Shown here: positions 2,541 through 21,420 of the stretch, in pieces
Layout: each line of letters opens with the position of its first letter
Position numbering within the stretch: the first letter of the stretch is position 1
Origin: a virus
Strand: one strand, 5' to 3'
IMG/VR virus record: IMGVR_UViG_3300038301_000339
Location: 1 to 21,420 of that record
DNA: 21,420 nt
Made by a program: the position numbers and the translations under genes
Notes under the pieces: model-generated
Seen by the model: only the letters and a program-made list of their open reading frames with translations
Database searches by the model: none
Told to the model about the DNA's origin: nothing

Positions 2541-2551
2541 GGTAGGTGATT

Positions 2552-5089: not shown

Positions 5090-5090
5090 A

Positions 5091-6314: not shown

Positions 6315-6541
6315 TGAAGGTTACTCCTGAGAAGTTTGTGACAATTTGGATGACATCTGAATCTCGCGAAGAAGTCGCGAAACGCACGGGGCTTACGTTG
6401 AAAACCGTCATTAGGTACGGCTGGACTTATAGATCCAACGGAGTTGCTTTAAAGAAGTTGGCTGAAGAGAGGAAAGGAGCTAACTGGGACCAACTCAGTA
6501 CGTTGTGTGACAGTCTCCACCCTATTAAAGAGCATGTTTAA
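6314..6541 (+). CDS. Small helix-turn-helix protein (75 aa)
   Basis: The start is ATG 6314, overlapping the previous TAA (TAATG) with GGAAGG 8 nt upstream; the longer frame from 6254 lies inside the preceding gene. The text FVTIWMTSESREEVAKRTGLTLKTVIRYGWTYRSNGVALKK is not shown whole by one motif, but SREEVAKRTGLTLKTVIRY is a standard helix-turn-helix, and the RSNGVALKK turn after it is common in small phage HTH proteins. It overlaps the helicase gene in the same TAATG manner, so all three genes are translated together. It may be a DNA-binding adaptor for the replication proteins or a regulator. Confidence 0.65.
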   Translation: MKVTPEKFVTIWMTSESREEVAKRTGLTLKTVIRYGWTYRSNGVALKKLAEERKGANWDQLSTLCDSLHPIKEHV

Positions 6542-8202: not shown

Positions 8203-8203
8203 G

Positions 8204-8232
8204 TTGACGTTCAAATTGCGAGAGATTACTGT
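8204..8232 (+). promoter_or_regulatory. Possible promoter before the 8283 gene
   Basis: TTGACG (8204-8209, 5 of 6 to the sigma70 -35 consensus) is followed after 17 nt by TACTGT (8227-8232, 3 of 6). It sits in the only sizeable gap (80 bp) in the replication operon. The weak -10 keeps confidence low. Confidence 0.35.
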
Positions 8233-8237
8233 CTACC

Positions 8238-8256
8238 TTCACACGTTAGATGTGAA
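8238..8256. promoter_or_regulatory. Inverted repeat TTCACA-7nt-TGTGAA, possible operator
   Basis: Perfect 6-bp arms with a 7-nt spacer lie just after the possible -10, where a repressor site or a 5' hairpin would act. The AAGGAG ribosome site follows 14 nt later. Confidence 0.35.
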
Positions 8257-8282
8257 AAACTAAGGAACTAAGGAGCTAAGAA

Positions 8283-8765
8283 ATGGATTATAAGGATCTA
8301 GCGAAATTACTCGCAGAACAGAAAATTAGTGGCTACAGCACTGAGTACTTTAACAAGGTAGACGCAGTTTATGAGTGTGTAGTTGACAATGTATTAATGA
8401 CCCAGAACAAGAAGTTTGAGAACAAGGTGGTTTTTGAGGTTAAGGTTGACAGCAATGACGGGAGCGAGGGCGCTAATCTGCCTGGGGCAGATTGCAAAAT
8501 AATCTACTCCCTTGATCCATGGAACTTGGAAAAAGTCAAGATGCACTTGCAAGGCATGTTGAGCGTAGAGTTCGGGTCGCTTGAGGATGACGTTCAGGAG
8601 CAACTACTTGTCGAAGCCCTTGAACCTTGCGAAGAGAAGGACGGAAAATCAGCGCTAAGTGGGCTGCGTATTCGATTAGTCTCTTCCCTACGAAACACTG
8701 AGAGCCGAATTGCTGAAGGCAAGGGTAGCTTTGTTAACTTCAAGATCACTCGGCTTAACCCTTGA
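8283..8765 (+). CDS. Hypothetical protein, possible phage ssDNA-binding protein (160 aa)
   Basis: The start at ATG 8283 has a strong AAGGAG site 7 nt upstream, unlike its neighbours, and possibly its own promoter, which would suit a protein needed in high amount. The pattern fits an OB-like fold of alternating strands: AVYECVVDNVLMTQ, NKVVFEVKVDSND, KIIYSLDP, then LSGLRIRLVSS and SFVNFKITRL. A helix (LEKVKMHLQGML) follows the Trp-containing segment. Phage single-stranded-DNA-binding proteins of this size share that order and commonly sit beside the polymerase. The C-terminus is not acidic as in bacterial SSB. The name is inference from layout and neighbourhood. Confidence 0.55.
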   Translation: MDYKDLAKLLAEQKISGYSTEYFNKVDAVYECVVDNVLMTQNKKFENKVVFEVKVDSNDGSEGANLPGADCKIIYSLDPWNLEKVKMHLQGMLSVEFGSLEDDVQEQLLVEALEPCEEKDGKSALSGLRIRLVSSLRNTESRIAEGKGSFVNFKITRLNP

Positions 8766-10753
8766 GTGAGGTCGCAACCCCTGAGTACCTTGCTTTTATG
8801 GAGCAGGGTGCTTGGGTCTTTGACCTTGAGACCCACCTTATCAAGGCAGGTAGCCAAGCTCCTCCTGTAGTGTGCATGTCACGCAGATTTTTACCTGCAA
8901 GGGATGACACTGAAAGCCAAATTATCGATGACATACATTCTGAGGGAGATATACCTCAAAAGTTCCTCGATATGGTGGATTCGGGATGTGCCATTGTGGG
9001 TCATAATGTTGCTTTTGATGTGACCGTGTTGATCCAGAACTTCCCTCACTTAATACCCCGTATTTTTGAGGCTTTGGACAAGGGACAAATACTTTGCACG
9101 ATGCTGATGAGCCGACTTTTCGAGAATGCAATGGGGCGACTTCAGAGGCAGGGTAGGAGGAAATTGAAGCATGAGACTGTATCTCCCTTTTCTCTAGCCG
9201 GGTGTGTCCACAGGTACCTTGGAAGGGACATAAGTGAAGGTAAGCAGGTAGGTGCATGGCGCTATCGGTACGAGGAACTTACAGGCATACCAGTTAGTCA
9301 GTATCCACAGGCAGCAATCGAGTACGCTCTTTCAGACGTTGAGCATACCGGCGACCTTTTTACGGCGCTAGTTCTCTTGGCTCGACATAGGGGACTCCCT
9401 AAAGGCGAGGCTAAAGACAGTCGCCATAGTTTGAATGTCTTATTTGATGCGTCAGCAAGAACCCGAGCGGCTGTCGCCTTGAGATTGATGGAGTGCTGGG
9501 GGATACGGACGGATCCCAATAGAGTCATTAAGCTAGAATCCGCTGTCGAGGAGGTTATCGAAGCTGCGAACAAAATAATGATGAGAGAAAACCTAATGCG
9601 TGCCGACGGGAGCACCGACATGGCGCTTCTGCGCGAAAGGGTAGAGACAGCTTATTTGAGTCGTGGCTTAGGGGTCCCTAAGACAGACAAAGGTAATATC
9701 AGGACCGACCGAGCAACTTTAAGAGAGAGCGGGGATTCTATACTAGAAGGGTGGGCGGCGGCAGGGTTTGCCTTTAAAGTCAGAAGCACTTTTTTACCGG
9801 CGGTTAAGTTAGGTACAACGCAGCCGGTACATTGCAGGTATCAGGTGATGGTAGAGACCGGACGAACATCCTGTAGCAGTCCCAACCTTCAGCAGATACC
9901 TCGTGCATCAGGAAGACTAGCCGTTAGAGAGACTTTCATACCTAGAAAGGGATACGCATTTTTGGCGGCAGACTATGACGCGGTTGAGATGCGTACCTTT
10001 GCCCAGGTGCTTCTAGACGATGTAGGGCAGAGCGAAATGGCAGAGCAATTTCAATCTAACCCTGATTTTGACCCTCATGTATTTTTTGCGGAGCATTTAG
10101 CACAGGGCAAGTGGGATACATTGGTAGATTCAGACAAGAAAGATCTTAGAACTCGAAGCAAGGCAGCTAACTTTGGTTTTTCGGGAGCTTTGGGTATCAC
10201 CACGTTCGTTACATTCTGCAAAAATTTTGGACTTCATCTAACTGAGAATGATGCCCAACGATTGAAGACTATGTGGTTCAACAAGTATCCTGAAGTGAGG
10301 CAATACTTTAGAAACATTAGTTCTCGCCTAGATCCCTTCGAGAATACCGGCACCGTTATCCACCGTCGTAGTAATAGGATTCGAGGCGACTGTTCGTTTA
10401 CCCAATGTGCGAATAGCCCTTTTCAGGGTATGAGCGCAGATGGGGCTCTCCATGCTCTTTATTTAGTAGTCAAAGAGTGTTTCGGTGCAACGGGTACGGA
10501 ATCTCCCTTATTTGGATCGCGTCCGGTCTTATACATCCACGATGAGATCGTAATGGAAACCCCTATCGACAAGGTACATGTGGCAGGACACAGGCTGTGC
10601 GAGTTAATGGTGGAGGGTATGGAGATGTATGTACCAGATGTCCCTATCCGAGCATCGCCCATCGCAATGGATCGCTGGTCTAAAGACGCTGAAGCGGTGT
10701 TTGATTCTTCAGGGAAACTAGCGGTTTGGAAGAGTGATTTAGTAAAACACTAG
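8762..10753 (+). CDS. polA-like: Family A DNA polymerase with 3'-5' exonuclease
   Basis: A 663-residue protein with TTG 8762 overlapping the previous TGA (TTGA); the next in-frame ATG is about 13 codons on, still before the first catalytic residue. Exonuclease motifs are complete: D21/E23 in FDLET, N82-D86 in GHNVAFD, and Y188-xxx-D192. Polymerase motif A is ADYDAVEMR (D404, E409), motif B runs R463-K467-F471, and motif C is HDE (593-595). Both halves therefore look active for copying and proofreading. In motif B the Tyr of Escherichia coli Pol I (Y766) is replaced: NFGFSGALG puts Gly475 there, a variant I recall from other phage polymerases. There is no 5'-3' exonuclease domain. It is the replicative polymerase and closes the operon. 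Confidence 0.9.
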   Translation: MSEVATPEYLAFMEQGAWVFDLETHLIKAGSQAPPVVCMSRRFLPARDDTESQIIDDIHSEGDIPQKFLDMVDSGCAIVGHNVAFDVTVLIQNFPHLIPRIFEALDKGQILCTMLMSRLFENAMGRLQRQGRRKLKHETVSPFSLAGCVHRYLGRDISEGKQVGAWRYRYEELTGIPVSQYPQAAIEYALSDVEHTGDLFTALVLLARHRGLPKGEAKDSRHSLNVLFDASARTRAAVALRLMECWGIRTDPNRVIKLESAVEEVIEAANKIMMRENLMRADGSTDMALLRERVETAYLSRGLGVPKTDKGNIRTDRATLRESGDSILEGWAAAGFAFKVRSTFLPAVKLGTTQPVHCRYQVMVETGRTSCSSPNLQQIPRASGRLAVRETFIPRKGYAFLAADYDAVEMRTFAQVLLDDVGQSEMAEQFQSNPDFDPHVFFAEHLAQGKWDTLVDSDKKDLRTRSKAANFGFSGALGITTFVTFCKNFGLHLTENDAQRLKTMWFNKYPEVRQYFRNISSRLDPFENTGTVIHRRSNRIRGDCSFTQCANSPFQGMSADGALHALYLVVKECFGATGTESPLFGSRPVLYIHDEIVMETPIDKVHVAGHRLCELMVEGMEMYVPDVPIRASPIAMDRWSKDAEAVFDSSGKLAVWKSDLVKH

Positions 10754-10836: not shown

Positions 10837-11637
10837 ATGGGAATTTATACTGCTCCAGGAAGAATCGTTTTCGCAGAAAACGCATTATCCCAACAGGTAG
10901 GAAATGAGCCTTTACGGGGGCTTGGCTATCGGAAGCTCGGGGAAAACCGCAGCGGCATTGGAGGGGTGAAAAGGTTTAACACCAATTCATCCGCAGGGCG
11001 TCAGGGACCCGGACCATGGTCAGTAAAGGGTCGATTCTTCTCAGGACCTAGCGACGCTAAACTCGCAGAATGGGTCTATCGATTTCAACACGACTATCAA
11101 AACTGCCCAGGTAAGCCCAGTGCTCAGAGTCTAAACTCACAAAACAATCCTTGGGACGTATACAGGGCAATCGATTATTGTAAGAATCGCGATGGAATGA
11201 TTGGGCACGCGACGATGTGCCAGATTGTACAAGCGATTGTTAAAAATCTGCCCTTCTGGGGAGCCTTTTGGTCGGCAAATCTCGATCCCAAACAGAACCT
11301 AGCTCACTACGCAGCTAACGGTGCTGAAGGATGTTCTTTCCTTTGCAGCGACGTAGCTTGTGATAAACGAGCCGTCACGAACTGCCAGCCGTGTGGAGAC
11401 CCCGCAGCAGGGCGGACCCAGACTGGGGCGCACAATGAGAAAAATGACGGAAAACGACGTTCTTACCAACCACCTCCAGGGCGACGCACCCGTCAACCTG
11501 TAAAGCCTACACCTCCCAGCATTAGGCGCTCAGACTCACTCAAGAAAGAAGATAATACCCTTCTTTGGGTTGGAGGAATTAGTCTTCTAGCGGTTGGCGG
11601 GTATCTTGTAGCCAAAAAAAGAGGGTTGATTAAGTAA
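10837..11637 (+). CDS. Cys-rich, C-terminally membrane-anchored late protein, possible peptidoglycan-binding domain
   Basis: A 266-residue protein preceded by AAAGGGATAGG. The N-terminal arm contains LRGLG (26-30). The middle (about 75-140) has a Q-rich helix WVYRFQHDYQNC and later RDGMIGHATMCQIVQAI, which resembles the DG-x-x-G-x-x-T core of peptidoglycan-binding domains. Eight cysteines follow in paired spacing (GCSFLCSDVAC, CQPC), an even number. Then comes a basic, Pro-rich linker (PPPGRRTRQPVKPTPP), a single membrane span (241-259) and a basic tail KKRGLIK. There is no N-terminal signal peptide. As first gene of the late operon it is probably a virion or envelope-contact component. The wall-binding assignment is tentative; the membrane anchor is clear. 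Confidence 0.6.
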   Translation: MGIYTAPGRIVFAENALSQQVGNEPLRGLGYRKLGENRSGIGGVKRFNTNSSAGRQGPGPWSVKGRFFSGPSDAKLAEWVYRFQHDYQNCPGKPSAQSLNSQNNPWDVYRAIDYCKNRDGMIGHATMCQIVQAIVKNLPFWGAFWSANLDPKQNLAHYAANGAEGCSFLCSDVACDKRAVTNCQPCGDPAAGRTQTGAHNEKNDGKRRSYQPPPGRRTRQPVKPTPPSIRRSDSLKKEDNTLLWVGGISLLAVGGYLVAKKRGLIK

Positions 11638-12177
11638 ATGAGGTTGGACCGCAAATCTGCGCCCGTCGCTCGTTACACTACCACCAGTAAAACGTACCGT
11701 GGAATACCTCAGACGATCGAATGGATGCGAAAACTGGCGAGGCAGGGACAAAGTGACCCGCAAGTTCGGCGCTATGCAATCAATTGTATAAGAGAAGTTC
11801 GCCCAAAGGACCATCTGAGCGAAGTCGCGGCTCTTTACTACGACACTGCTCGCAGGATTCGATACACACGAGATCCCGCAGAAGCAGAGTTAGTGCAGCA
11901 TCCGTTGGTAACGCTTAGGGAACGCTCTGGCGACTGCGACGACATGGCTACGCTATTAGTGGGTCTACTAGGGACCCAAGCCTTAGCAGTCGGAGCGCCT
12001 ACGGAATTCATCACAGCAGGGTTTAAAGAGAACCCAGGTGTAAATAAGTTTACGCATGTTTTTATGAGAGTTCAGGACCCGAACACAGGGGGCTGGCTAG
12101 TTATGGACCCTGTAGCCGGTCCAGAGACCTCCAACATGATTACTAAAACCAAGCGCTGGAAGCAGTATCACACCTGA
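11638..12177 (+). CDS. Transglutaminase-like cysteine enzyme (C-H-D triad)
   Basis: A 179-residue protein whose ATG directly follows the previous TAA. The transglutaminase-like superfamily triad is readable: Cys100 in SGDCDDMATLL, His140 in FTHVFMR, and Asp157 in VMDPVAG, with the expected helix after the Cys and strands around His and Asp. The N-terminal part is helical and basic. Bacterial and phage proteins of this fold are mostly cysteine proteases or amidases rather than cross-linkers. It has no membrane segment, unlike most of its neighbours, so it could act on them, for example as a maturation protease or cross-linker. That role is inference; the fold is well supported. Confidence 0.75.
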   Translation: MRLDRKSAPVARYTTTSKTYRGIPQTIEWMRKLARQGQSDPQVRRYAINCIREVRPKDHLSEVAALYYDTARRIRYTRDPAEAELVQHPLVTLRERSGDCDDMATLLVGLLGTQALAVGAPTEFITAGFKENPGVNKFTHVFMRVQDPNTGGWLVMDPVAGPETSNMITKTKRWKQYHT

Positions 12178-12213
12178 AAAGCGCCCAAGGTTACGGAAAG
12201 AAAGGTAGTTAAA

Positions 12214-12642
12214 ATGGCTCAGGGTTCAAGATTTGTAGCACCTAGATTTAACGGTCCCGGCTTGTGGGATCCTCGCATACCAGGACAGGCTTACCCCGAG
12301 CCACAAGAAGGCGTGCCGTATGTAGAGGGTACAGCGGGACTATCGGGTGACTGCGGATGCTCAGGAGTGGGAGCACTTCCCTCGCCAGTTAACTTGGGAG
12401 CACGAGCATCTATAAGATTCCCTACTTCATTGTTGAGAGCACCTAATAACATCGCTGATTTGTCGAGAAGTCTCTCAAATCGCAGTGGCGCGGCACAAAT
12501 TGCTCGGATAGGTAATCCGAATCTTATAGGCAGAGGTACCTACCCATCGACTGCCGAAGGCGGCATGAGCACGGTAAAGAAAGTAGGTCTGGGAATAGGC
12601 GGATTAGTCGGCATCTATGTCCTTTACGAGCTAATGAAGTAG
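12214..12642 (+). CDS. Small C-terminally anchored late protein (142 aa)
   Basis: The ATG has AAAGGTAG upstream. The N-terminal half is Gly/Pro-rich and disordered in look (RFNGPGLWDPRIPGQAYPEP), with DCGCSGVGALP (46-56) carrying two cysteines and a GVG motif. A helical stretch (NNIADLSRSLSN) follows, and the protein ends with KK then a Gly-patterned span GLGIGGLVGIYVLYELM (about 124-141) and one final Lys. No signal peptide. The plan of variable head plus terminal span is shared with at least five genes downstream. Function is unknown; a minor membrane protein of the virion is likely. Confidence 0.6.
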   Translation: MAQGSRFVAPRFNGPGLWDPRIPGQAYPEPQEGVPYVEGTAGLSGDCGCSGVGALPSPVNLGARASIRFPTSLLRAPNNIADLSRSLSNRSGAAQIARIGNPNLIGRGTYPSTAEGGMSTVKKVGLGIGGLVGIYVLYELMK

Positions 12643-12650
12643 GGAATCTT

Positions 12651-13397
12651 ATGGAAGCAGTCACACCAAAGTTTGGTCGAGGGAATCCCCTTCTTGATCG
12701 TATCAACGACATGCGTGAGCGAGCAGGAATGGGTCCGTTGGATAACCAGCCGGACGAGCCAGACGCTCACATCATTGATGCTCGCAGAGACGGTCCTGTA
12801 GGGATGGGTGATCCTTTGCCGGAATTGCCTGAGATGCCTTACACAGGAAGTGATGGCGACTTCGGAGGAGCGGGAGCTAGTGATAGCTGGGACCCTGAAC
12901 TTGATACGGAAACTTCTCTGCCTCCTGAAAACAACGTAAAAGCCGTAACCGTGTCTAAGTCGTCAGCACCTACGTGTAAGCCGAAAGCATTTTACCAAGA
13001 GACATCTTTTCTTTTGGGCGGATTAATCGCACCTATCCCATTCGCTGCATATCAGGCTTACAAACGCAAAGCTCGACAAGTTACGTGCAGTACAAACGGT
13101 GGAACTCAAGTTTCCCCGCAGTGTAAGAATCTGGCAGTAGAAAGCGCCAATCACCTACGTTGCCACAAGGAAAGTCTCGAATCTGACGCTGGTGATTCAG
13201 TGAAGATGATGATGCGTAGACAGTCTTGGGGATTACCTCTTGCTATTGCAGGCGGATTAGTAGGGGCATATCACGGTCACAAAAAACAAGACGGCTGGAA
13301 AACTACTACTGCGTGGGGTGCAGCAGGACTGTTGTTTCCTTTCGTCGCTGCGGGTGTAGCTGCGTGGCAAGGTTTTCCTCTTTACAGGAAGAAGTGA
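12651..13397 (+). CDS. Three-span membrane protein with acidic N-terminal arm (248 aa)
   Basis: ATG 12651 follows TAGGGA. Residues 1-100 are acidic, Pro/Gly-rich and likely disordered (LPELPEMPYTGSDGDFGG). Three hydrophobic segments follow: FLLGGLIAPIPFAAYQAY (about 122-139), WGLPLAIAGGLVGAYHGH (about 195-212) and TAWGAAGLLFPFVAAGVAAW (about 221-240). Between the first two lies a polar loop with three cysteines (TCST, QCKN, RCHK), and one more cysteine (TCKP) precedes the first span, four in all. The C-terminus is basic (YRKK). No known family is recognised. A pore, scaffold or membrane-curving role in a virion is possible. Confidence 0.6.
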   Translation: MEAVTPKFGRGNPLLDRINDMRERAGMGPLDNQPDEPDAHIIDARRDGPVGMGDPLPELPEMPYTGSDGDFGGAGASDSWDPELDTETSLPPENNVKAVTVSKSSAPTCKPKAFYQETSFLLGGLIAPIPFAAYQAYKRKARQVTCSTNGGTQVSPQCKNLAVESANHLRCHKESLESDAGDSVKMMMRRQSWGLPLAIAGGLVGAYHGHKKQDGWKTTTAWGAAGLLFPFVAAGVAAWQGFPLYRKK

Positions 13398-13405
13398 GTT
13401 AAAAG

Positions 13406-14593
13406 ATGTACGCAGAAGATCCGAGCTACCCAAAGTCTAGACTATACGACTCATTTGACCTAGCACATACGCCTAAGCGAAGCTCCTCGGAACTTCCCCC
13501 GGGAGCAGGCATTTTCGCATACAGAAATCCTAACGAACGCCAACGTGCTTTTATGCAATGGCTCGAAAGTGTGGACGGGCTGGGCGCGTATGATGCTATC
13601 AGGGGCTTAGGACTATCCTGGAGTGATGTAAAAGATGCCGGTCGGTGGGTCGGACGTCAAGCAAAGACCGGATACGACGCCACCATAGGCGCAGCGGTAG
13701 ATTATGTTGGCGAGGGGGTGAATTGGGTCGTAGAGCAGGTCAAAGATTTTGATACTTGGATGGAAGACCAGCTAGAAAAAATCGGCTTAGGTGGAATGTA
13801 TCGGGACATAGCGGACACTGTTGTCAAAATAGGAAATAAGGCTTTAGTAGCGGTAGGTAAAACTATCGATGGCGCTATCAACATAATAGTGGTTGAGGGC
13901 GGTAAATATGTTGGGGCGATAGCTGCCGGAGCAGCATGTGCAGCAGGCAATGTAGTAGGTATTGCTATCCCGCCACACGCATGTGCCGCAATTGGTGCCC
14001 AGATTGGCGAAATCGCAGGTGAGACAATTGGCGATGTAATGAACCACATCAAGGCGGAGACCATAGACGCTTTACGCCCCCAAGACGTATCACAGGGCAC
14101 ACAGCAGTTGGCACGCGGACTCACGATGGAGCAATGCCCCCTTCCTGATCCTAGTACTATTGTACTAATGTTTAATGAACCGCTGGCTAAGTGGACTGCG
14201 GCAGCCAAACGAAGCTACTTTGCAGACCTCCAAAGGCGAGCCACGCACCCGGTAGCTAAACAGTATTATCAGTGCCGTGCAACCCAGTATAATTTTGGCT
14301 CGGTTATGGATCGATTGGGCATAAATAGCATTACCGCAATGCTTAATCGGGGGGCTCCGAGTACGCGAAATTTGAACTTTCAAAGAAGCATAACTGCTTT
14401 GAACAAAATAGGAACCCGGCGCAAGGCATACGATAAGTTTCTTACAACAGGAGGCAGAAATGTGCGCCTGTCCAAGCACGCAACAACAACAACTCCTCCT
14501 CCAGAAGAAGAATCCAATCTACTTCTTTTCGCAGCTTCAGGGCTCGCGGTTGTGGGGTTAGCGGTTGTGGGTAAAAAGAAAGGGTGGTTTTAA
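13406..14593 (+). CDS. Large late membrane protein with GLGLSW motif and C-terminal anchor (395 aa)
   Basis: The start has GGAAGAAG upstream. Residues 1-55 form a polar arm; then VDGLG (56-60) and IRGLGLSW (65-72) are followed by amphipathic helices (VGRQAKTGYDATIGAAVDYVGEG not counted as one motif; about 76-115). The middle (about 165-215) is Gly/Ala-rich with small-residue zippers (GAIAAGAACAAGN, IGAQIGEIAGETIG), typical of membrane-inserting helices. A helical basic region (ATHPVAKQYYQCRATQYNFG) precedes a Thr/Pro/Glu linker, then a single span (about 371-389) and KKKGWF. Four cysteines. The 19 bp coding GLGLSW are repeated exactly in the gene at 18827. This might be a membrane-penetrating virion protein; no family is recognised. 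Confidence 0.6.
   Translation: MYAEDPSYPKSRLYDSFDLAHTPKRSSSELPPGAGIFAYRNPNERQRAFMQWLESVDGLGAYDAIRGLGLSWSDVKDAGRWVGRQAKTGYDATIGAAVDYVGEGVNWVVEQVKDFDTWMEDQLEKIGLGGMYRDIADTVVKIGNKALVAVGKTIDGAINIIVVEGGKYVGAIAAGAACAAGNVVGIAIPPHACAAIGAQIGEIAGETIGDVMNHIKAETIDALRPQDVSQGTQQLARGLTMEQCPLPDPSTIVLMFNEPLAKWTAAAKRSYFADLQRRATHPVAKQYYQCRATQYNFGSVMDRLGINSITAMLNRGAPSTRNLNFQRSITALNKIGTRRKAYDKFLTTGGRNVRLSKHATTTTPPPEEESNLLLFAASGLAVVGLAVVGKKKGWF
13603..13621 (+). repeat. 19-bp exact repeat, copy 1 (encodes GLGLSW)
   Basis: GGGCTTAGGACTATCCTGG is identical to 18862-18880, in the same reading frame, near the start of the conserved part of both proteins. Flanks differ at once on both sides. Confidence 0.8.
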
Positions 14594-15075
14594 TGTACGT
14601 TGACAAATTACAAGGCGTCGGAATCCTAGACGACCTGAAAGAAGCGTTTGGAAGTGGCGGAGGACTGGGAACAGAGATTCTCACATCTAAGGCTTCCCGA
14701 GAACTTCTACAGCGTAAGTTACAAGAAGCGAAAGCAGGAGAGCGCCTCGGCAAAGAAATCGGTTGTGGTATAGCCTCAGCGTTCGATTCGGCTATACCTA
14801 AAGCAGTGTGGGGCACCTCGGACGTCCAGAAGGAATGTAAGCCCCCTAAAAAGGGTGGGATAAAGATCATTCACGCACCCAACGAGTATGCTGACTTCGC
14901 ACTAGCCGTCGCCAATCCGACTATCCAACGCGCTCAGAGAGTTGCGGCAGGAATTGCAGAGCCAAGAATTAAGGCGAGGCTTATGCCGTGGTTCGTAGGT
15001 CTACCCATTGCAGGGCTGCTAGTTGGTGCAGGCGTAACTTACTTGGTAATGAACAGAATGAGACCAAAACGATGA
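14593..15075 (+). CDS. C-terminally anchored late protein with N-terminal LQGVG (160 aa)
   Basis: I start at ATG 14593, overlapping the previous TAA (TAATG), rather than the upstream GTG. MYVDKLQGVGILDD places the L-x-G-V-G motif at residues 6-10, followed by an amphipathic helix and a Gly run (GSGGGLG). The middle is helical and charged; two cysteines (GCGIAS, KECKPP). The C-terminus has a long span WFVGLPIAGLLVGAGVTYLVM (about 133-153) and the basic tail NRMRPKR. Its stop overlaps the next ATG (ATGA). Function unknown; the plan matches the neighbouring anchored proteins. Confidence 0.6.
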   Translation: MYVDKLQGVGILDDLKEAFGSGGGLGTEILTSKASRELLQRKLQEAKAGERLGKEIGCGIASAFDSAIPKAVWGTSDVQKECKPPKKGGIKIIHAPNEYADFALAVANPTIQRAQRVAAGIAEPRIKARLMPWFVGLPIAGLLVGAGVTYLVMNRMRPKR

Positions 15076-15209
15076 AGACTTCCCTAGATGCCGCAGCGCG
15101 GGAAGCAGCAAGCTCTAGCACCGCCCCGCCAAGCTACAACTGGGTCTACGTGTCTCTAGCAGGTGTGGCTGCCTATTATGCCTATAGCTATTTCACAAAG
15201 GGGAAATGA
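15072..15209 (+). CDS. 45-residue single-span membrane miniprotein
   Basis: ATG 15072 overlaps the stop of the previous gene (ATGA). The protein has a short helical head (SLDAAAREAASSS), a Pro-containing turn (TAPPS) and one membrane span (about 24-41) rich in Tyr and Ala, ending TKGK. It is below usual annotation cut-offs but has the coupling and the anchored plan of its neighbours. Minor virion membrane proteins and small lysis proteins both look like this; the sequence does not decide. Confidence 0.55.
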   Translation: MKTSLDAAAREAASSSTAPPSYNWVYVSLAGVAAYYAYSYFTKGK

Positions 15210-15212
15210 ACC

Positions 15213-16817
15213 ATGCCGATGACAGCAGCACAGCGTAAAAGGATACCCGCAAAAGATTTCGTTTATCCTCGTGAGCGCAAGTACCCAATTAACACGAAGA
15301 AGAACGCTCAAAGTGCGTTGAGTCTTGCTGCTCTTCATGGGTCCCAACTGGGCGGAGCAAAGGGAAAGCAGCTTATAAACAAAGTGTACGGAAGTGTGCT
15401 GAAAAAGTATCCTGCTTTGGCGGAGTCAGATTCCAAGACTATGAGGGCATTTCTTCGTGGGAATAAGCGCAAGAACCCAGGTCACGCTCGCAGTCCAATG
15501 CGGACCCACTCGGCTTTGTATACACACACCGTCTTAGGCGAGCAGGTGGATACATACCTAACAAGGTCAGGCGAAAGGTATAAGGTGTTCATCGTGAGTG
15601 AGGATGTCGAGCTTCCAGGCACCCACTCAAGCAGAAGTGGCGCGGTTTCGGCGGCTAGGGCTTACTTAAAGAAGCGCAAGAACCCCGGTCACGACACCGA
15701 TATTCTGCGACTTGAAGGCGTCGGAGGGCGTTTTCGACAGGTCTCGATTGCTCGTATCAAGCGAATGTCAAAAAGGCAGCTGCAAGAGTACCTTGAGTTT
15801 CGCGGAATGATGGTCAGGGACGAATTGAAGGCTGAACTTCTGGATGATGCCTTGGCGGATTTTCAAGAAGAGGTTAAGTACAGATCTCGCAAGAACCCCG
15901 GTCACGCTCGGCATAACCCACCAAACAATTTGTTTGTGACGCCAAAGAGTTTTGCAGAACTTCAGTCGTACATCGACAGTACTTCGGCACCTGCGAACAA
16001 CATGCTTATTGCTACAGCGGTAATCAATTTCGTGGCATTTGAGACAGGGAACAAGAAAAAAGTTCAAAAGTTTTACCCTGCTCCTGAAACAGAAGCTGAA
16101 TTACAGGCGGTATTTAACGCAGGTGTTCAGGGACGAAATAAAAAGCAAGTAGGCGAAGCGACAACAGTAGCAAACATGGCTCAGAATTTTGCTTATCATG
16201 TGCTGCGTGTTCCTCGAAAGAATCCACGAGAATTTCCTCACCTGCATGAGATGGGACACAAGCGACAGAGCGAGCGTGAAGCAGAGTCAATGGTGAATTA
16301 CGACGTAATTTACGAAAAGAAAACTCGCAAGAATCCCACCTATTCTACTGAGAAGACAAGGCGTTGGAAGGGTGTTGAGTACGTCACTTTTTACAATGAA
16401 GACTCGGCAAGCCCGTTTGCATGGAGTGCTTGGGCGCTTGGTTTTGGCGACTTGGCGACTGGGAGATCCGAAGCCGAGGTGATAGAACGTGCGCGAGGTA
16501 TAATCTCGGCGGGGCACAAAACCCTAGAAGGTCGGAAGGGGATGGCAAAACTATATATCTCCGCCGATGAACAAGCAGCCTACAAAAGAGGTCTGCACAA
16601 GCGGAAGAATCCTGCTCCTACACGCAAGATGGCCCCGGCAGTAAAGGGCCGAGCCGCATTGGTTAAGATGGCCCCGGCAGTAATAAGGAGCCGAGCCGCA
16701 TTGGTTAAGAAAGCCTTCGCATTGCGAGAAAAAACTGGTTCACGAATGTCGCCTCGGACGATCATGAAAGACCCCGCTAAAGTGATTCGCATCTTTGAGA
16801 AAAGGCTGACGCGCTAA
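15213..16817 (+). CDS. Multi-domain protein with six RKNP linkers; N-terminal DUF6582-like domain
   Basis: A 534-residue protein with AAAGGGGA upstream of ATG 15213. It has no cysteine and no membrane span and is very basic. RKNP occurs at residues 86, 155, 226, 335, 372 and 464, three times as RKNPGH, each marking a boundary between different small domains. Domain 1 (MTAAQRKRIPAKDFVYP, then RKYPINTKKNAQSAL) resembles DUF6582, a phage-associated domain. Domain 2 is a beta-rich 55-residue unit; domain 3 includes MSKRQLQEYLEFRGM, loosely SAP-like; domain 4 (about 235-330) is helical; domain 5 (WKGVEYVTFYNED) is alpha/beta; the end is a basic repeat. It may be a DNA-associated internal virion protein or a precursor cut at the linkers. 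These roles are inference. The next gene overlaps by TAATG. Confidence 0.6.
   Translation: MPMTAAQRKRIPAKDFVYPRERKYPINTKKNAQSALSLAALHGSQLGGAKGKQLINKVYGSVLKKYPALAESDSKTMRAFLRGNKRKNPGHARSPMRTHSALYTHTVLGEQVDTYLTRSGERYKVFIVSEDVELPGTHSSRSGAVSAARAYLKKRKNPGHDTDILRLEGVGGRFRQVSIARIKRMSKRQLQEYLEFRGMMVRDELKAELLDDALADFQEEVKYRSRKNPGHARHNPPNNLFVTPKSFAELQSYIDSTSAPANNMLIATAVINFVAFETGNKKKVQKFYPAPETEAELQAVFNAGVQGRNKKQVGEATTVANMAQNFAYHVLRVPRKNPREFPHLHEMGHKRQSEREAESMVNYDVIYEKKTRKNPTYSTEKTRRWKGVEYVTFYNEDSASPFAWSAWALGFGDLATGRSEAEVIERARGIISAGHKTLEGRKGMAKLYISADEQAAYKRGLHKRKNPAPTRKMAPAVKGRAALVKMAPAVIRSRAALVKKAFALREKTGSRMSPRTIMKDPAKVIRIFEKRLTR
16626..16706 (+). repeat. Tandem repeat encoding KMAPAVxxRAALVK
   Basis: Two units, 16626-16664 (39 bp) and 16665-16706 (42 bp), are almost identical apart from a codon-sized insertion and nearby changes, so they arose by recent in-frame duplication. 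They encode a basic Ala-rich helix near the C-terminus of the RKNP protein, resembling histone H1-like tails. Confidence 0.75.
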
Positions 16818-17218
16818 TGGGAACCCCGTCAGCCGCAGGAGTCGCCTTTTTAAAAGGGGATAGAATGCTAGTACTAAAGCGGTCAAAGCATGTGGACGCT
16901 CCAAACACTTGGGCGCTTCCCGGCGGAACGCTCGAAGACGGAGAGACGTATGAAGATGCCGCAGTGCGAGAAGTTGACGAAGAAATTCTCAACGCGCCTG
17001 ACGATTACTTGATTACAGGGGAGTACGCATTCCGTAACCCCCAAATGAATTATTCGATGTTTGTAGCACATTTGCCTACAATGTTTACTCCTGTGCTCAA
17101 CTATGAGCATAGTGCCTACAAGTGGGCTACGCCCCGACAGCTAGACCGACTGAACTTACATCCTGGATTCCGGGCAGGTTTAGAGCGGATTAAGGAGATG
17201 GAAAATGCAGTTTCTTAG
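16817..17218 (+). CDS. Nudix hydrolase (133 aa)
   Basis: ATG 16817 overlaps the previous stop. The Nudix box is G37-x5-E43-x7-R51-E52-V53-x-E55-E56, in GGTLEDGETYEDAAV followed by REVDEE; all metal-binding glutamates are present. The final Gly of the classic box is replaced by Leu (EEILN). The protein has a normal Nudix size. Family members cleave nucleoside diphosphates linked to another group (NTPs, NADH, ADP-ribose, RNA caps); the substrate cannot be read from this sequence. It is unusual to find it amid presumed virion genes. Two ADP-ribosyltransferase-like genes in the window make ADP-ribose or NAD chemistry one possibility. Confidence 0.85.
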   Translation: MGTPSAAGVAFLKGDRMLVLKRSKHVDAPNTWALPGGTLEDGETYEDAAVREVDEEILNAPDDYLITGEYAFRNPQMNYSMFVAHLPTMFTPVLNYEHSAYKWATPRQLDRLNLHPGFRAGLERIKEMENAVS

Positions 17219-17870
17219 TGGACTAGGACGCTATTTTGAGACCCCACAGGCTTATGAGGATGGCGAACGGTTCGACATCACGGGCGTGGACAACAATTAT
17301 CAAGCGCCTGTGGCTGGGCTGGGGGCAAGAGTGCTTGGGCTCACCCACGAGCACCCCCACCATCATCGCTACGCTCGGGGCTATACCCACTTCGGTGCCC
17401 ACGACAGGGCTCCTTCGCAGAAAAGGGTGTCGAACGTGTCGTCCCTTCGTGGACGTGTGAAGGGAGGAATGGGTCGGTACTTCGAGACCCCCGCTGCGTA
17501 TGCAGCCGGTGAGCGTTTTGAAATGGTCGGTGCTGAAGGTGATTATCAAGCGCCTGTCGAGGGTGTTGGTCGTTACTTTGAGGATGCTTATGGTATCGAG
17601 CATGGTGAGCGATTTGACATCGCCGGAGCCAACACAAACTACCAAGCTCCCCTCGTAGGCGGCGTTGGACGCTATATGCTCGACGACACAGCCTTCAAGG
17701 GAGTAGGTGCGATTCCACAAACTACTGTGGCGCAACTTCAAAGAGAGGGCGTGTTAGGTGTTAGCGGATACCGAGAAACTCTCGAAAGCGCGAATCCGTA
17801 CCTTCTTATTGGTGCAGGGGTAGCGTTAGGCGCTTTGATTACTTATGCCGCCCATCGGATGAAGAAGTAA
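17205..17870 (+). CDS. Repeat protein GRYFETP...NYQAP with His-rich insert and C-terminal anchor
   Basis: A 221-residue protein with AAGGAG 8 nt before ATG 17205, overlapping the Nudix gene by 14 bp. Three units of about 31 residues (8-38, 90-120, 122-152) share GRYFETP, GERFD and NYQAP, and a fourth starts at GRYM (155). Each unit follows a G[LVM]G motif (LSGLG at 4-8, VEGVG at 118-122). Between units 1 and 2 is a stretch with seven histidines in 19 residues (48-66), a possible metal site. After unit 4 comes one span (about 198-216) and RMKK. No cysteine. The Tyr/Phe repeats could be a fibrous or wall-contacting part exposed on the virion. No family is recognised. Confidence 0.6.
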   Translation: MQFLSGLGRYFETPQAYEDGERFDITGVDNNYQAPVAGLGARVLGLTHEHPHHHRYARGYTHFGAHDRAPSQKRVSNVSSLRGRVKGGMGRYFETPAAYAAGERFEMVGAEGDYQAPVEGVGRYFEDAYGIEHGERFDIAGANTNYQAPLVGGVGRYMLDDTAFKGVGAIPQTTVAQLQREGVLGVSGYRETLESANPYLLIGAGVALGALITYAAHRMKK

Positions 17871-17871
17871 C

Positions 17872-18489
17872 ATGACGACTCGGAAGGAGAAACTTGTAAA
17901 CGCTGGAGCCGTTGGCTTGGGAGCGTTAGCGGGTTACGCTGTTACAAAGCACTTTGGGCGAGAAGACATGCTCGCAGGATGGGGTGTACTGGGGATCGTA
18001 GGTATTGGAGGTATGCTTCTCCGACCGGATCCTTTAAAGCGATACGGAATGACATCACTCTCCGCCGGACTATTGGCAGGTCTGATTACAGCCGCTTTTG
18101 AGGAAGGGGGATCCTTATCGAACAAGCCTGTAATGACGGGTCCGCCTAGCGTGGACTGGAAGCGGACTTACGACGAAGCAGTCGCCGGATGCCTTGAGGG
18201 GAATGCAGGGGCATGTTCTACCGTGGAACGTCTCAGGAACAGGTTAAAAGGGGCACCCGTCGAGGTCAAGGTCGCTAACCGTGATCCCAGCACTCCTCAA
18301 GTATCTATTGACCCTGCAAGAGCGAATGCCATTTCTGCATGTAATGGAGGAGACGTTCAGGCGTGCTGCTATTTGCAGAACGTAAAGGGCGAGGTTCCTC
18401 CAAAGCCTTGCGTGACCAACACGGCTGCGAAAGCTCGTAATTTCAAGGAGACTGGTGTGAGTGGATACTCGCCTGGGCTCTGCTGTTAG
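17872..18489 (+). CDS. N-terminal multi-span membrane protein with Cys-repeat domain (205 aa)
   Basis: ATG 17872 follows the previous TAA by one base; no clear ribosome site, so coupling is likely. Hydrophobic segments lie at about 9-25 (GAVGLGALAGYAV), 34-50 (LAGWGVLGIVGIGGMLL) and 61-75 (SLSAGLLAGLITAAF). The C-terminal half is soluble and has eight cysteines. Two stretches look related: GCLEGNAGACSTVERL and ACNGGDVQACCYLQ, a C-x-x-G-[ND]-x-x-AC pattern like Cys-containing Sel1-type helical hairpins. The protein ends LCC. Paired cysteines suggest disulphides outside the cytoplasm. No family is certain. Confidence 0.6.
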   Translation: MTTRKEKLVNAGAVGLGALAGYAVTKHFGREDMLAGWGVLGIVGIGGMLLRPDPLKRYGMTSLSAGLLAGLITAAFEEGGSLSNKPVMTGPPSVDWKRTYDEAVAGCLEGNAGACSTVERLRNRLKGAPVEVKVANRDPSTPQVSIDPARANAISACNGGDVQACCYLQNVKGEVPPKPCVTNTAAKARNFKETGVSGYSPGLCC

Positions 18490-18496
18490 GGGAATT

Positions 18497-18817
18497 ATGT
18501 CAACGAGACCACCATGCACTACCGCAGTGAAAGAGGGACCGTGGAACAATCCACAGTTTCCGTATAACCCTCAAGCAGATCAGCCTTGTCCCGAGGGGTA
18601 TCACCGGGTAGAAAAGGAAATGGACATAGAAATTGATGGACGCAAAGTTCAGTATAATTTTTGTGCTCCCATAGGGGCTACTGACTGTAAAGGCTTTGGT
18701 GTCAATGCAGGCAAAGATTTAGACGCTTATTTTGGCGCAAAATCCAACTGGATACTATGGATCGGTGGCGGGATTCTCTCCATCGCACTTATTTCACGAT
18801 GGCGAAATCTACAATAG
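18497..18817 (+). CDS. Small Cys-containing C-terminally anchored protein (106 aa)
   Basis: I prefer ATG 18497, with AGGGGA 5 nt upstream, to the longer frame starting at 18461 inside the previous gene. Four cysteines (PPCTT, QPCPEGYHRV, NFCAPI, DCKGFG) suggest a small two-disulphide domain around a beta hairpin (EMDIEIDGRKVQYNF). KGFG precedes the single span WILWIGGGILSIALIS (about 85-100), and the tail is RWRNLQ. Function unknown; its plan matches the other anchored late proteins. Confidence 0.6.
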   Translation: MSTRPPCTTAVKEGPWNNPQFPYNPQADQPCPEGYHRVEKEMDIEIDGRKVQYNFCAPIGATDCKGFGVNAGKDLDAYFGAKSNWILWIGGGILSIALISRWRNLQ

Positions 18818-18826
18818 GGGAAAACA

Positions 18827-19756
18827 ATGTACATCGAAGAAGGCTCAAACAGTAAAGTGCAGGGCTTAGGACTATCCTGGGACACAATATCGAACGCAGC
18901 GTCCAACGTCGCTAGTGGAGCGCGTGACGCAGCGTCCGACGCCGTTAGTGGAGCGCGTAGTTGGGTACAGGGCACAGCTAGCTCGGCAACTCGTGGGGCG
19001 CGCCGGGAAGCGGAGCGAGCAGCGGGATCAGCGGTCGATAGTGTGTTTTCAGCCGGTAGGCGGATAGGAAGCGGTCGGGCGGGCGGCACCAGGAGCGCGA
19101 ACGATGCCATTAGCTCCTTATTCGGCGGGCAGGAACGGGTCAAGATGCAGAGGGAGGCAGAGGCGGCTGCCGAGGCGGCTGCCGAGGCAGCGCTACGAGC
19201 CGCGAATCCCTCCGCCTATGACCGTGCAGTAAAGAGGGTTGCGATGGAGCTAGGATCACGAAACGCTCTTCCACCGTTGGTCAGTTCCGCAATGATTAAG
19301 AGCCTTGCGGGGCAAGCAGCAAAAAGAAAGGCACCTAGCCTACGCACGTTCTCAAAGCCGTTACTGAGCAAAGGTATTCGTCTTCCTTTCGGCGTTCGAC
19401 CCGGACAGGTTGGACCTGCTCCAGAGCCTATGCCTTTGAATAGGGAGTCTATGGCAGCCCTACAAAGTTTACGCACTCAGAGATCAGGCACATCTTTAAT
19501 GATGCCTGGAGCAATGCCTGGGATGCAGTCAGAACAACCTATGCACCAAATGCCTGATGGTACAATGATGCCTGGAGCAACGCATTCTGAAATGCGCCAG
19601 TACTCATCATCTGCTCCCGAATCACAAGTCGAGATTCCTGGAGCGCCTCCAGCGGCTCCAGCGGCTCCAGCGGCTCCAAAGGCAGATAAAATGCCGTTAT
19701 ACCTGGGAGTCGGACTTGGGGTAGCTATAATCGGGATCCTAGTTCTCAAGAAATAA
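18827..19756 (+). CDS. Late protein with GLGLSW, 11-residue amphipathic repeats, Met/Pro-rich linker and C-terminal anchor (309 aa)
   Basis: ATG 18827 has AGGGGA 9 nt upstream. VQGLGLSW (11-18) matches the gene at 13406 down to the DNA. An Ala/Ser/Arg helix with 11-residue repeats follows (ASNVASGARDA, ASDAVSGARSW), the pattern of apolipoprotein- or LEA-like membrane-surface helices, then a repeated AAE helix (about 110-122). Residues 225-265 are Met- and Pro-rich with a duplicated MMPGA; APAAPAAPK leads into a single span (290-307) and KK. No cysteine. The composition is low-complexity and GC-richer at the start than neighbours. Possibly a membrane-coating or curvature protein of a virion; no family recognised. 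Confidence 0.6.
   Translation: MYIEEGSNSKVQGLGLSWDTISNAASNVASGARDAASDAVSGARSWVQGTASSATRGARREAERAAGSAVDSVFSAGRRIGSGRAGGTRSANDAISSLFGGQERVKMQREAEAAAEAAAEAALRAANPSAYDRAVKRVAMELGSRNALPPLVSSAMIKSLAGQAAKRKAPSLRTFSKPLLSKGIRLPFGVRPGQVGPAPEPMPLNRESMAALQSLRTQRSGTSLMMPGAMPGMQSEQPMHQMPDGTMMPGATHSEMRQYSSSAPESQVEIPGAPPAAPAAPAAPKADKMPLYLGVGLGVAIIGILVLKK
18862..18880 (+). repeat. 19-bp exact repeat, copy 2 (encodes GLGLSW)
   Basis: Identical to 13603-13621 and in the same frame, about 5.3 kb away. Synonymous choices are also shared, so this is a copied segment rather than protein convergence. Confidence 0.8.
18896..18961 (+). repeat. 33-bp tandem repeat (two units) in the 18827 gene
   Basis: Units at 18896-18928 and 18929-18961 share GCAGCGTCC and TAGTGGAGCGCGT with a few changes. 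Each encodes 11 residues, keeping the helical hendecad phase. Confidence 0.75.
19498..19580 (+). repeat. 17-bp direct repeat AATGATGCCTGGAGCAA
   Basis: Exact copies at 19498-19514 and 19564-19580 encode the duplicated MMPGA in the Met/Pro-rich linker. A nearby GCGGCTCCA triplet repeat (about 19651-19677) encodes the Ala-Pro run. Confidence 0.75.
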
Positions 19757-19761
19757 ATGCT

Positions 19762-20031
19762 ATGAAAGAGCCCAAGTCGCAATACATCCGAGTCCTTGAT
19801 GTTCTCGTGATAGGTCCCCTTATGATTTATGGTGGACTTCACTTGAGCAGGGATAAAAGCCAGAGATTGACAGCGCTTGGACTGACGTTTTTTGGAGTCA
19901 CTACCATTGGCTACAATCTGATGAACTACTTTGAAATTCAGAGAAGAGGGAAGCACATAAGCCATGGGAAGATACATTGCCGCAGGGTACCTTCTTCTCC
20001 AGAAAGATTAAAGCGAGCGCAGGAAGGTTGA
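19762..20031 (+). CDS. Two-span small membrane protein, holin candidate (89 aa)
   Basis: ATG 19762 lies 5 nt after the previous stop. Two hydrophobic segments occur: VLDVLVIGPLMIYGGLHL (about 11-28) and LTALGLTFFGVTTIGYNLMNYF (about 36-57), joined by a short charged turn (SRDKSQR). The C-terminus is very basic. The pattern IRVLDVLVIGPLMIYGG with a later TIGYNLMNY is one I recall from uncharacterised phage proteins. Two spans, small size, basic tail and a peptidase gene directly downstream would fit a holin, but so would a structural membrane protein in this operon. Confidence 0.55.
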   Translation: MKEPKSQYIRVLDVLVIGPLMIYGGLHLSRDKSQRLTALGLTFFGVTTIGYNLMNYFEIQRRGKHISHGKIHCRRVPSSPERLKRAQEG

Positions 20032-20052
20032 ATTCTTAAAAAGAAAGAATTC
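20030..20052 (+). promoter_or_regulatory. Hairpin GAATTCTT-7nt-AAGAATTC before the peptidase start
   Basis: Perfect 8-bp arms (20030-20037, 20045-20052) lie between an AGGAAGG site (20021-20027) and ATG 20061. Unfolded, that site is 33 nt from the ATG; with the hairpin folded only about 10 nt remain, a workable distance. This could bridge the ribosome site to the start. Confidence 0.4.
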
Positions 20053-20060
20053 TTAAAGCT

Positions 20061-20705
20061 ATGTTTATGAGAACTAATTCCTCAAAAGGTAGTTTACCTG
20101 TAGTTGTTCTAGGCTCTGCCGCTATTGGCGTCTTGCTCGTCGGACTCTTCAGGAACCGAGGGACTAGGGGAAGAGAAGCGGACGACTTTCCTAGCGCCCC
20201 CGTCTTTACCCAAAACAGAGTCAAAGTCGATGATTACGGTAGCTTATCTCCAAGCGATTCACGTCTCGTTGAAGTGCCAGGAATTAACTCACGAACTATT
20301 GTCGTACATAGCGAGATGGCAGATAGGCTCAATGCTTTAATTCGCGATGCGGGGTCTGATGGATTCCCAGATATTCGTATTGCAAGCGGACATCGCCCCC
20401 ACCGTTGGGAGTCGTGGGACCAGTATGCAGAAGCTATGCGTAGGGAATATGGGTCGGCGGAGGAGGGAAGACAGTGGAGGGCGTATAAAAGTCCTCACGA
20501 GACAGGGCTTGCTGTGGACTTTGGATCACATGGACTCTACCCCTCACGTTCGGGACAGGGACCCTTTGGTCTTTCCAATGAGCAGCAAAAACAAACTCCT
20601 TTTTACAAGTGGCTGAAGGCGAATGCACACAAGTACGGGATTACACCTTATAAACTTGAAGCGTGGCACTGGGAAGCGCGAATACCTTACAAGGACTGGG
20701 TGTAG
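20061..20705 (+). CDS. Membrane-anchored M15 (VanY-like) peptidase
   Basis: A 214-residue protein. One N-terminal span (about 10-30, LPVVVLGSAAIGVLLVGLF) is followed by RNRG, a linker, and a peptidase domain with the M15 zinc motifs: SGHR (H111), SPHETGLAVDFG (zinc ligands H146 and D153) and EAWHWE (E200 catalytic, H203 ligand). Members cut peptidoglycan stem peptides as D,D- or L,D-carboxypeptidases or endopeptidases. The anchor places the enzyme on a membrane, either of the virion (local wall opening at entry) or of the cell (lysis). No cysteine. ATG 20061 has no close ribosome site; a hairpin may bring one near. It follows a two-span protein and precedes the RKNP/ART-like gene. Confidence 0.8.
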   Translation: MFMRTNSSKGSLPVVVLGSAAIGVLLVGLFRNRGTRGREADDFPSAPVFTQNRVKVDDYGSLSPSDSRLVEVPGINSRTIVVHSEMADRLNALIRDAGSDGFPDIRIASGHRPHRWESWDQYAEAMRREYGSAEEGRQWRAYKSPHETGLAVDFGSHGLYPSRSGQGPFGLSNEQQKQTPFYKWLKANAHKYGITPYKLEAWHWEARIPYKDWV

Positions 20706-20707
20706 GC

Positions 20708-21420
20708 ATGAAGGTAAAGCTACCACAGTCTGTTATTAAAGGACTTCGTACAGGTCTTGAGTTATACGCCAAAGGTCTTGGAGGCAAAGGGCTGGTAGAC
20801 GATACGATCCGAATGGCTCGTACAGGCGTTCGCACAGGCATGTGGGACGAGTGGAAAGTCGTTAAAGCAAGCGCATGGTTTGCCCGACACGTAGCCGATC
20901 GTACTCGCATGACGAACCCAAAGTCTTGGAACCAAGCGCCTCGCTACTCCCCAGCATATGTCGCATGGGCTTTGTGGGGAGATGATGGTACGAACTCAGG
21001 TAAACGGTGGATTGACAAAAAGGCTAAAGAGTTGAAGGCGCAGGGGGTTAAAGCCTCACCGCGTAAGAATCCGCAAAATAAGAAAGGCATGTCAAAAACC
21101 ACTGACTATCATCGAGCGGGAGCCGCTGCATGGTCTGAGCTAGGCATCTTCCCTTTGGCGCACCCCGACGGGCTTAGTACTCTGTGGCTGGCAATGTATG
21201 GATCCCCATTACCTGCCGACAGTCCGACTGGTTTAAGCCGCGCATGGCGAAAAGCGGGCAGTAAGGAAATGATTGCCGCGCTCAGGGATTTGCGGAACGG
21301 GACTGTATTGCCACGTACCAAAGGGGTACGGTTGCACCATTCTATCCTCAAAGGAGATTCCCAAGACATAATAGACTCGATCATACGGTCGGGGTTAAGG
21401 GCAGACCCTAAAGGCGTGGG
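20708..21420 (+). CDS. Late protein with RKNP motif and start of an ART-like domain (partial)
   Basis: ATG 20708 lies 2 nt after the previous stop; the frame stays open to the window end (237 residues seen). The N-terminal part has a helical, basic region (RTGVRTGMWDEWKVVKAS) and RYSPAYVAWALWGDDGTNSGKRW, a pattern I recall from phage structural proteins. KGLGGKG lies at about 17-23. SPRKNPQ (RKNP at 119-122) starts a linker to a second domain. Near the end, GVRLHHS (H210, H211) followed by IIDSIIRSGL matches the first motif and helix of the ADP-ribosyltransferase fold, as in the gene at 468. If right, this is a structural protein carrying an NAD-using enzyme. The catalytic remainder is outside the window. 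Confidence 0.6.
   Translation, partial: MKVKLPQSVIKGLRTGLELYAKGLGGKGLVDDTIRMARTGVRTGMWDEWKVVKASAWFARHVADRTRMTNPKSWNQAPRYSPAYVAWALWGDDGTNSGKRWIDKKAKELKAQGVKASPRKNPQNKKGMSKTTDYHRAGAAAWSELGIFPLAHPDGLSTLWLAMYGSPLPADSPTGLSRAWRKAGSKEMIAALRDLRNGTVLPRTKGVRLHHSILKGDSQDIIDSIIRSGLRADPKGV

Follow-up and report, generated by a model that had tools for sequence, protein, structure and literature searches.

The DNA examined here is the IMG/VR virus record IMGVR_UViG_3300038301_000339, classed as linear; the window is the entire record of 21,420 bases, and our subject is its late operon (positions 10837 to 20705), in which many small proteins end in a membrane anchor. Membrane spans were predicted from sequence only, by hydropathy, and a protein was credited with a lysine/arginine (K/R) tail if K or R occurred in its last 10 residues. 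All the late open reading frames listed in an earlier note on this DNA are present where that note placed them. The operon and the start of the gene that follows it read as follows (aa, amino acids):

10837..11637 (+): 266 aa, C-terminal span and KKRGLIK tail, internal LRGLGY motif
11638..12177 (+): Pfam Transglut_core, transglutaminase-like cysteine-enzyme fold, Cys100-His140-Asp157; homologue of gp34 of Salisaeta icosahedral phage 1 (SSIP-1) and marker gene of the group
12214..12642 (+): 142 aa, C-terminal span
12651..13397 (+): 248 aa, C-terminal span and YRKK tail
13406..14593 (+): 395 aa, central Gly/Ala-rich hydrophobic stretch, C-terminal span and KKKGWF; motifs VDGLGAYD and IRGLGLSW
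14593..15075 (+): 160 aa, C-terminal span and NRMRPKR; N-terminal LQGVG motif
15072..15209 (+): 45 aa, C-terminal span and FTKGK (by eye, below threshold)
15213..16817 (+): 534 aa, soluble, basic; seven [K/R/H/E]xNP motif hits, mostly RKNP
16817..17218 (+): Nudix hydrolase
17205..17870 (+): 221 aa, three full G[LMV]GRYFE...GERF...YQAP repeats, C-terminal span and HRMKK
17872..18489 (+): 205 aa, two spans near the N terminus
18461..18817 (+): C-terminal span and SRWRNLQ; ATG at 18497
18827..19756 (+): 309 aa, N-terminal VQGLGLSWD motif, C-terminal span and LKK
19762..20031 (+): 89 aa, borderline hydrophobic segments, possible membrane protein (by eye)
20061..20705 (+): VanY-type D-Ala-D-Ala carboxypeptidase with an N-terminal anchor (by eye), a probable membrane-bound peptidoglycan hydrolase
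20663..21418 (+): start of the next gene, cut by the contig end; LQGLGVG and RKNP motifs

Eight of the fifteen late proteins (10837, 12214, 12651, 13406, 14593, 17205, 18461/18497 and 18827) carry a single C-terminal span followed by a K/R tail, and the heads of these anchored proteins are mutually unrelated. A ninth C-terminal span is visible by eye in the 45-aa protein of 15072, which is too short and weak to reach the hydropathy threshold. Such a series is well beyond chance: composition-preserving shuffles of the late proteins gave a mean of 0.20 C-terminal-span proteins and never more than 3 (300 shuffles), versus 8 of 15 observed. None of the 10 early genes of the window encodes such a protein. 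Among the late regions of tailed phages the counts were 1/27 in lambda, 0/21 in HK97, 0/26 in P2 and 0/30 in T4, or 1 in 104 altogether. The same note had counted eight C-terminal-span genes; the series is real, but nine are present, the gene at 12651 having been overlooked. Its figure of twelve span-bearing genes out of fifteen holds if the borderline 19762 protein and the N-terminal anchor of 20061 are included, whereas the strict threshold yields 10, among which the segment called in the soluble 11638 protein is probably a false positive. Within the head domain of the 18827 protein, Ala-rich repeats arise from a near-perfect 33-base tandem duplication (window 18894-18958).

The gene at 11638 connects this operon to an isolated virus. 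Searched against 50,697 phage records, its product had a sole match, SSIP-1 gp34 (32% identity, E 3e-11; two accessions of one phage), which is labelled 'structural protein' in its GenBank record. In the reverse search of gp34 against the sequence collection assembled here, the window protein was the top match (E 7e-15). The catalytic Cys and His are kept in all 15 aligned enzyme sequences, the third residue being Asp or Glu. SSIP-1, described in 2012, is a tailless icosahedral phage of about 100 nm (T=49) with an internal membrane, a 44 kb circular double-stranded DNA genome and two major capsid protein types (PMC6356626, PMC6260650), and its genome was said to have hardly any similarity to GenBank sequences (PMC6356626). 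Its gp33-gp57 region contains nine proteins out of 24 with a C-terminal span and K/R tail (gp34, 36, 39, 41, 42, 50, 52, 53 and 54); three of these, gp34, gp41 and gp53, carry a structural annotation. The adjacent structural proteins gp45 and gp46 (L079:34635-35959) are paralogues by profile comparison (E 4e-8), which fits the two reported capsid protein types.

Taken together, these data make it very probable that the late operon is a module for the membrane proteins of the virion, in a new SSIP-1-like lineage that replicates with a family A polymerase (PolA) and a PrimPol-VapE protein. The lipid-membrane virion proposed in the earlier note gains support because the 11638 protein has its homologue among the structural proteins of an isolated phage with an internal membrane and because the same anchor series occurs in SSIP-1 and in many related contigs; the virion of the window is itself something we infer. 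The other idea of that note, an envelope-spanning delivery device of a virion without a membrane, has become much less likely.

Searches of viral contigs with the 11638 protein and its alignments returned 14 loci, then more, on contigs of about 35 to 140 kb. About 20 IMG/VR contigs carry the marker gene and most of them also have the anchor series around it; usually the marker is followed by several small proteins in a row, each ending in a C-terminal span and K/R tail. In six of the 10 contigs tested, C-terminal-span proteins are enriched within 11 kb of the marker gene relative to the rest of the genome (Fisher p <=0.002; 6e-5 in contig G008). The C-terminal region of the 12651 protein is 41-44% identical over about 46 aa to proteins encoded directly downstream of the transglutaminase-like enzyme in relatives. 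The enzyme-family tree places the window as sister to a clade of 111-140 kb contigs (support 94/92); SSIP-1 lies near, its placement being unsure because of a long branch.

Five relatives repeat at least their first 60 bases near their end, with an overlap of about 125-145 bases (G002, 136 kb; G012, 73 kb; G011, G016 and G019, about 35 kb). They are read as circular and probably complete, because the start sequence recurs in this way. G002 (L033-L039; 136,226 bp) is probably a large tailless virus; it encodes six collagen-repeat proteins, a magnesium chelatase ChlI, Thy1 and a 1,249-aa relative of the tyrosine-integrase protein of G001. The circular 35-kb contigs G016 (L049-50) and G019 (L047-48) carry tandemly duplicated proteins of about 218 aa, glycosyltransferases, an SLT lysozyme and a pilin-like gene.

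A short motif also runs through the anchored proteins. The pattern [LIVMF]xG[LVMI]G occurs at 10 sites in the C-terminal-span proteins of the window versus 1.2 in shuffles, and the corresponding figures are 22 versus 3.9 in G001, 20 versus 6.0 in G002 and 23 versus 3.1 in G008. No excess was found in the other proteins of these three contigs, nor in more distant contigs. In G001 and G002, part of the sites fall inside the hydrophobic spans. An extended version of the motif, GxG(R/E)YF, forms repeats in the window protein 17205, in G001 (4965-5384 and 73385-75898) and in L084:12579-12995; used as a query, the GxGRYFE repeat found no confirmed relative among viral contigs and nothing significant among phages. 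Near the N terminus of SSIP-1 gp36, QGMGDIWD is close to the QGLGLSWD of the window 18827 protein. The G-x-G site resembles the cleavage consensus of adenain, a likeness that serves as a lead only. The marker enzyme may recognise the [LIV]xG[LVM]G site as a signal for maturation proteolysis or for docking; that the enzyme actually processes these sites seems rather doubtful to us. The NP motif, which has seven hits in the 15213 protein, occurs twice in SSIP-1 gp41 and once in gp44, as a motif and not as an alignment. The N-terminal 45 or so aa of the 15213 protein (window 15213-15350) match phrog_16160 (E 1e-6), and this N terminus also weakly matches crAss-like phage proteins annotated as 'putative transmembrane protein'.

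In the 111-140 kb clade, the best capsid candidates are three adjacent genes for proteins of 259, about 330-369 and about 300 aa (alignments A2, A3 and A4). The 259-aa candidate is 58-86% identical between contigs and is preceded by a Lys/Arg-rich protein with a span; it has no match in known phages, in 72,556 plasmids or in PDB. The same order, an Arg-rich spanning protein and then a strongly conserved protein of about 256 aa, is found in G011 and L087. A genome search with this 259-aa candidate gave a single contig, L073 (CAUJHX010000182.1, 122,730 bp), which encodes it at 73% identity and had been assigned to a metagenome-assembled genome of Pseudomonadota; this is a possible hint at the host, the contig being probably a co-binned virus.

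Several observations weigh against a membrane virion of the SSIP-1 type. Firm sequence homology to SSIP-1 comes from one gene only, the rest being architecture and motif. The window, a fragment that ends before any capsid gene, contains none, and no packaging ATPase either. The candidates of the clade match no known capsid by profile (PM2, FLiP, P23-77 and SSIP-1 compared) and, in particular, are not alignable to gp45/46 of SSIP-1. AlphaFold models built on 10-row alignments were uninformative for the 259-aa candidate (predicted local distance difference test, pLDDT, 35), while the 369-aa candidate came out as no more than a weak beta-sandwich (pLDDT 47), for which Foldseek listed many jelly-roll capsids at non-significant scores; the capsid fold of the clade is thus unproven. 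No counterpart of the SSIP-1 virion ATPase gp40 was found in the clade. Lastly, searches of the relatives for terminase (PF03237, phrog_2) and portal (PF04860) gave no match, but they also missed some tailed controls.

For this reason, the argument that terminase is absent is carried by the scan for P-loop motifs. Among the predicted genes of circular G002, credible P-loops belong to ChlI, a DnaC-like ATPase and DnaB, none of them terminase-like; the scan gave none in circular G019 and none convincing in circular G016. In G011, a P-loop protein has an FtsK/HerA-like first motif and no Pfam hit. Whole-genome PHROG and Pfam scans of G002 list the commonest families only, so that single-copy tail genes could escape them.

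Replication relies on two proteins identified by Pfam:

2546..5089 (+): PrimPol-type primase with PriCT_2 and a VapE-like helicase domain
8762..10753 (+): family A DNA polymerase with 3'-5' exonuclease

The earlier reading of a PolA and PrimPol-VirE system, as opposed to the PolB of tectiviruses, is thereby confirmed. The nuclease, SNF2 helicase and PolA of the window (5091-10753) match those of the tailed-phage record MW202816.1 in the same order at 26-29% identity (28% for PolA). This suggests, from gene order and similarity, that the replication block is common to different virus types. The window PolA had no match as a query in viral contigs. Next to the replication genes, the N terminus of a protein encoded at 468-1325 weakly resembles KptA/ADP-ribosyltransferases (E 0.06).

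Three other scenarios are considered. The similarity of the replication genes to those of MW202816 would suit a tailed phage with unusual ejection proteins, spanning the inner membrane and periplasm, and a borrowed transglutaminase-like gene. Weak tape-measure profile matches in PHROGs, for the 13406 (E 1e-4) and 18827 (E 9e-4) proteins, point the same way; we reject the tape-measure reading of these two proteins, as the matches are probably due to Ala/Gly-rich composition. However, Pfam and PHROGs scans of the window proteins found none of the Caudoviricetes traits (large terminase, portal, HK97-fold capsid), nor is there any tail gene in the window, and no tail, portal or terminase gene was found in the complete relatives. 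Tail tube, baseplate and terminase genes, whose presence beside the operon the earlier note regarded as contrary to a membrane virion, were sought in the relatives and not found, with imperfect controls. Given also a single C-terminal-span protein among the 104 of the tailed controls, and a marker gene that matches only a tailless phage among all the phage records searched, we hold a tailed phage to be improbable.

Less probable still is a plasmid-like or conjugative element whose operon would build an envelope-spanning device for DNA delivery and not a virion. Many membrane-anchored proteins, peptidoglycan hydrolases and the circularity of several relatives would agree with it, but the window proteins that were scanned matched no secretion-ATPase, relaxase or pilus family, gp34 belongs to the virion of SSIP-1, the capsid candidate of the clade is absent from the plasmids searched, and all records come from a viral collection. 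A virus with an outer envelope, or a pleomorphic vesicle, is to be given equally little credit: C-terminal anchors alone do not distinguish an inner from an outer membrane and no capsid gene was read in the window, but in SSIP-1, the phage with the homologous virion protein, the membrane is enclosed by an icosahedral capsid (PMC6356626, PMC6260650), and strongly conserved candidate shell proteins adjoin the module in relatives.

Returning to a virion with an internal membrane, its assembly would probably proceed as follows. The late proteins would insert post-translationally into the host inner membrane via their C-terminal spans, while the varied heads, if the topology is as we suppose, would stay cytoplasmic and bind the inner face of the assembling capsid. 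The shell would thereby wrap a membrane patch into a vesicle, and the Lys/Arg tails, then facing the vesicle interior, could contact the packaged DNA. The membrane-anchored VanY enzyme might open the peptidoglycan at entry or exit. The transglutaminase-like Cys-His-Asp protein would ride in the virion, like gp34 in SSIP-1, presumably as a cysteine hydrolase; its substrate could be cell-wall peptides or virion proteins at the shared [LIV]xG[LVM]G sites, and cross-linking is another option.

More broadly, we lean slightly towards the view that the window is part of a large group of tailless bacterial viruses with an internal membrane, a group that has so far escaped recognition and whose marker is the gp34-type cysteine enzyme. 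No other internal-membrane bacterial virus would then have genomes as large as those of its 111-140 kb sister group (one member circular, 136 kb), roughly three times the size of the SSIP-1 genome, and the [LIV]xG[LVM]G site may be a signal for a maturation protease or for docking. The window and its relatives give SSIP-1 distant kin, and a one-gene marker with which to find more. What would be labelled a 'virus with no recognisable structural genes' becomes a testable claim about an internal-membrane virion, and tailless phages with a membrane seem to attain 140 kb, a genome size that one usually associates with tailed phages. The kind is already known but nearly unsampled, and the sister clade would extend it to 140 kb genomes.

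Among known systems, PRD1 (Tectiviridae) is alike in being membrane-containing and tailless with many small membrane proteins. It uses, however, a protein-primed PolB and it has few or no C-terminal-span proteins (0/23 by the hydropathy test used here); assignment of the window to the tectiviruses is rejected, PolA being present instead of PolB. P23-77 (Matsushitaviridae) is also an internal-membrane phage, with two major capsid proteins, many single-span proteins and a PAPS reductase gene that SSIP-1 and G019 have too; its genome is 17 kb and its capsid proteins have no detectable homology to the clade candidates. The Finnlakevirus FLiP has a structural protein with a C-terminal span and RKK, and an Arg-rich spanning structural protein lies directly before its capsid gene, as before the capsid candidates in G001 and G011; its genome, in contrast, is 9 kb of single-stranded DNA, and no homologous proteins were found. 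The Corticovirus PM2 has small virion proteins (P3, P8 and orf j) with a C-terminal span and K/R tail, and circular double-stranded DNA like the circular relatives. Unlike the window, it is 10 kb long, with a rolling-circle initiator, the packaging ATPase P9 and no transglutaminase-like protein; it has no sequence similarity to the clade candidates, and the window fragment, which replicates by PolA and PrimPol-VapE, shows no PM2 P2-like capsid protein.

SSIP-1 differs from the window in that gp34 has its own C-terminal span, which the 11638 protein lacks, and in that no gp40-like ATPase or gp45/46-like capsid pair is seen in the window fragment; the window uses PolA and PrimPol-VapE, and shares no further recognisably homologous gene. 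The two nevertheless have in common the gp34 homologue with the same catalytic-triad fold, the long series of C-terminal spans with K/R tails around it and a GMG motif, present in gp34 and gp36, and perhaps also a basic structural protein with NP motifs (gp41 and gp44 in SSIP-1). Of the known viruses SSIP-1 comes closest, and not a tectivirus or a corticovirus.

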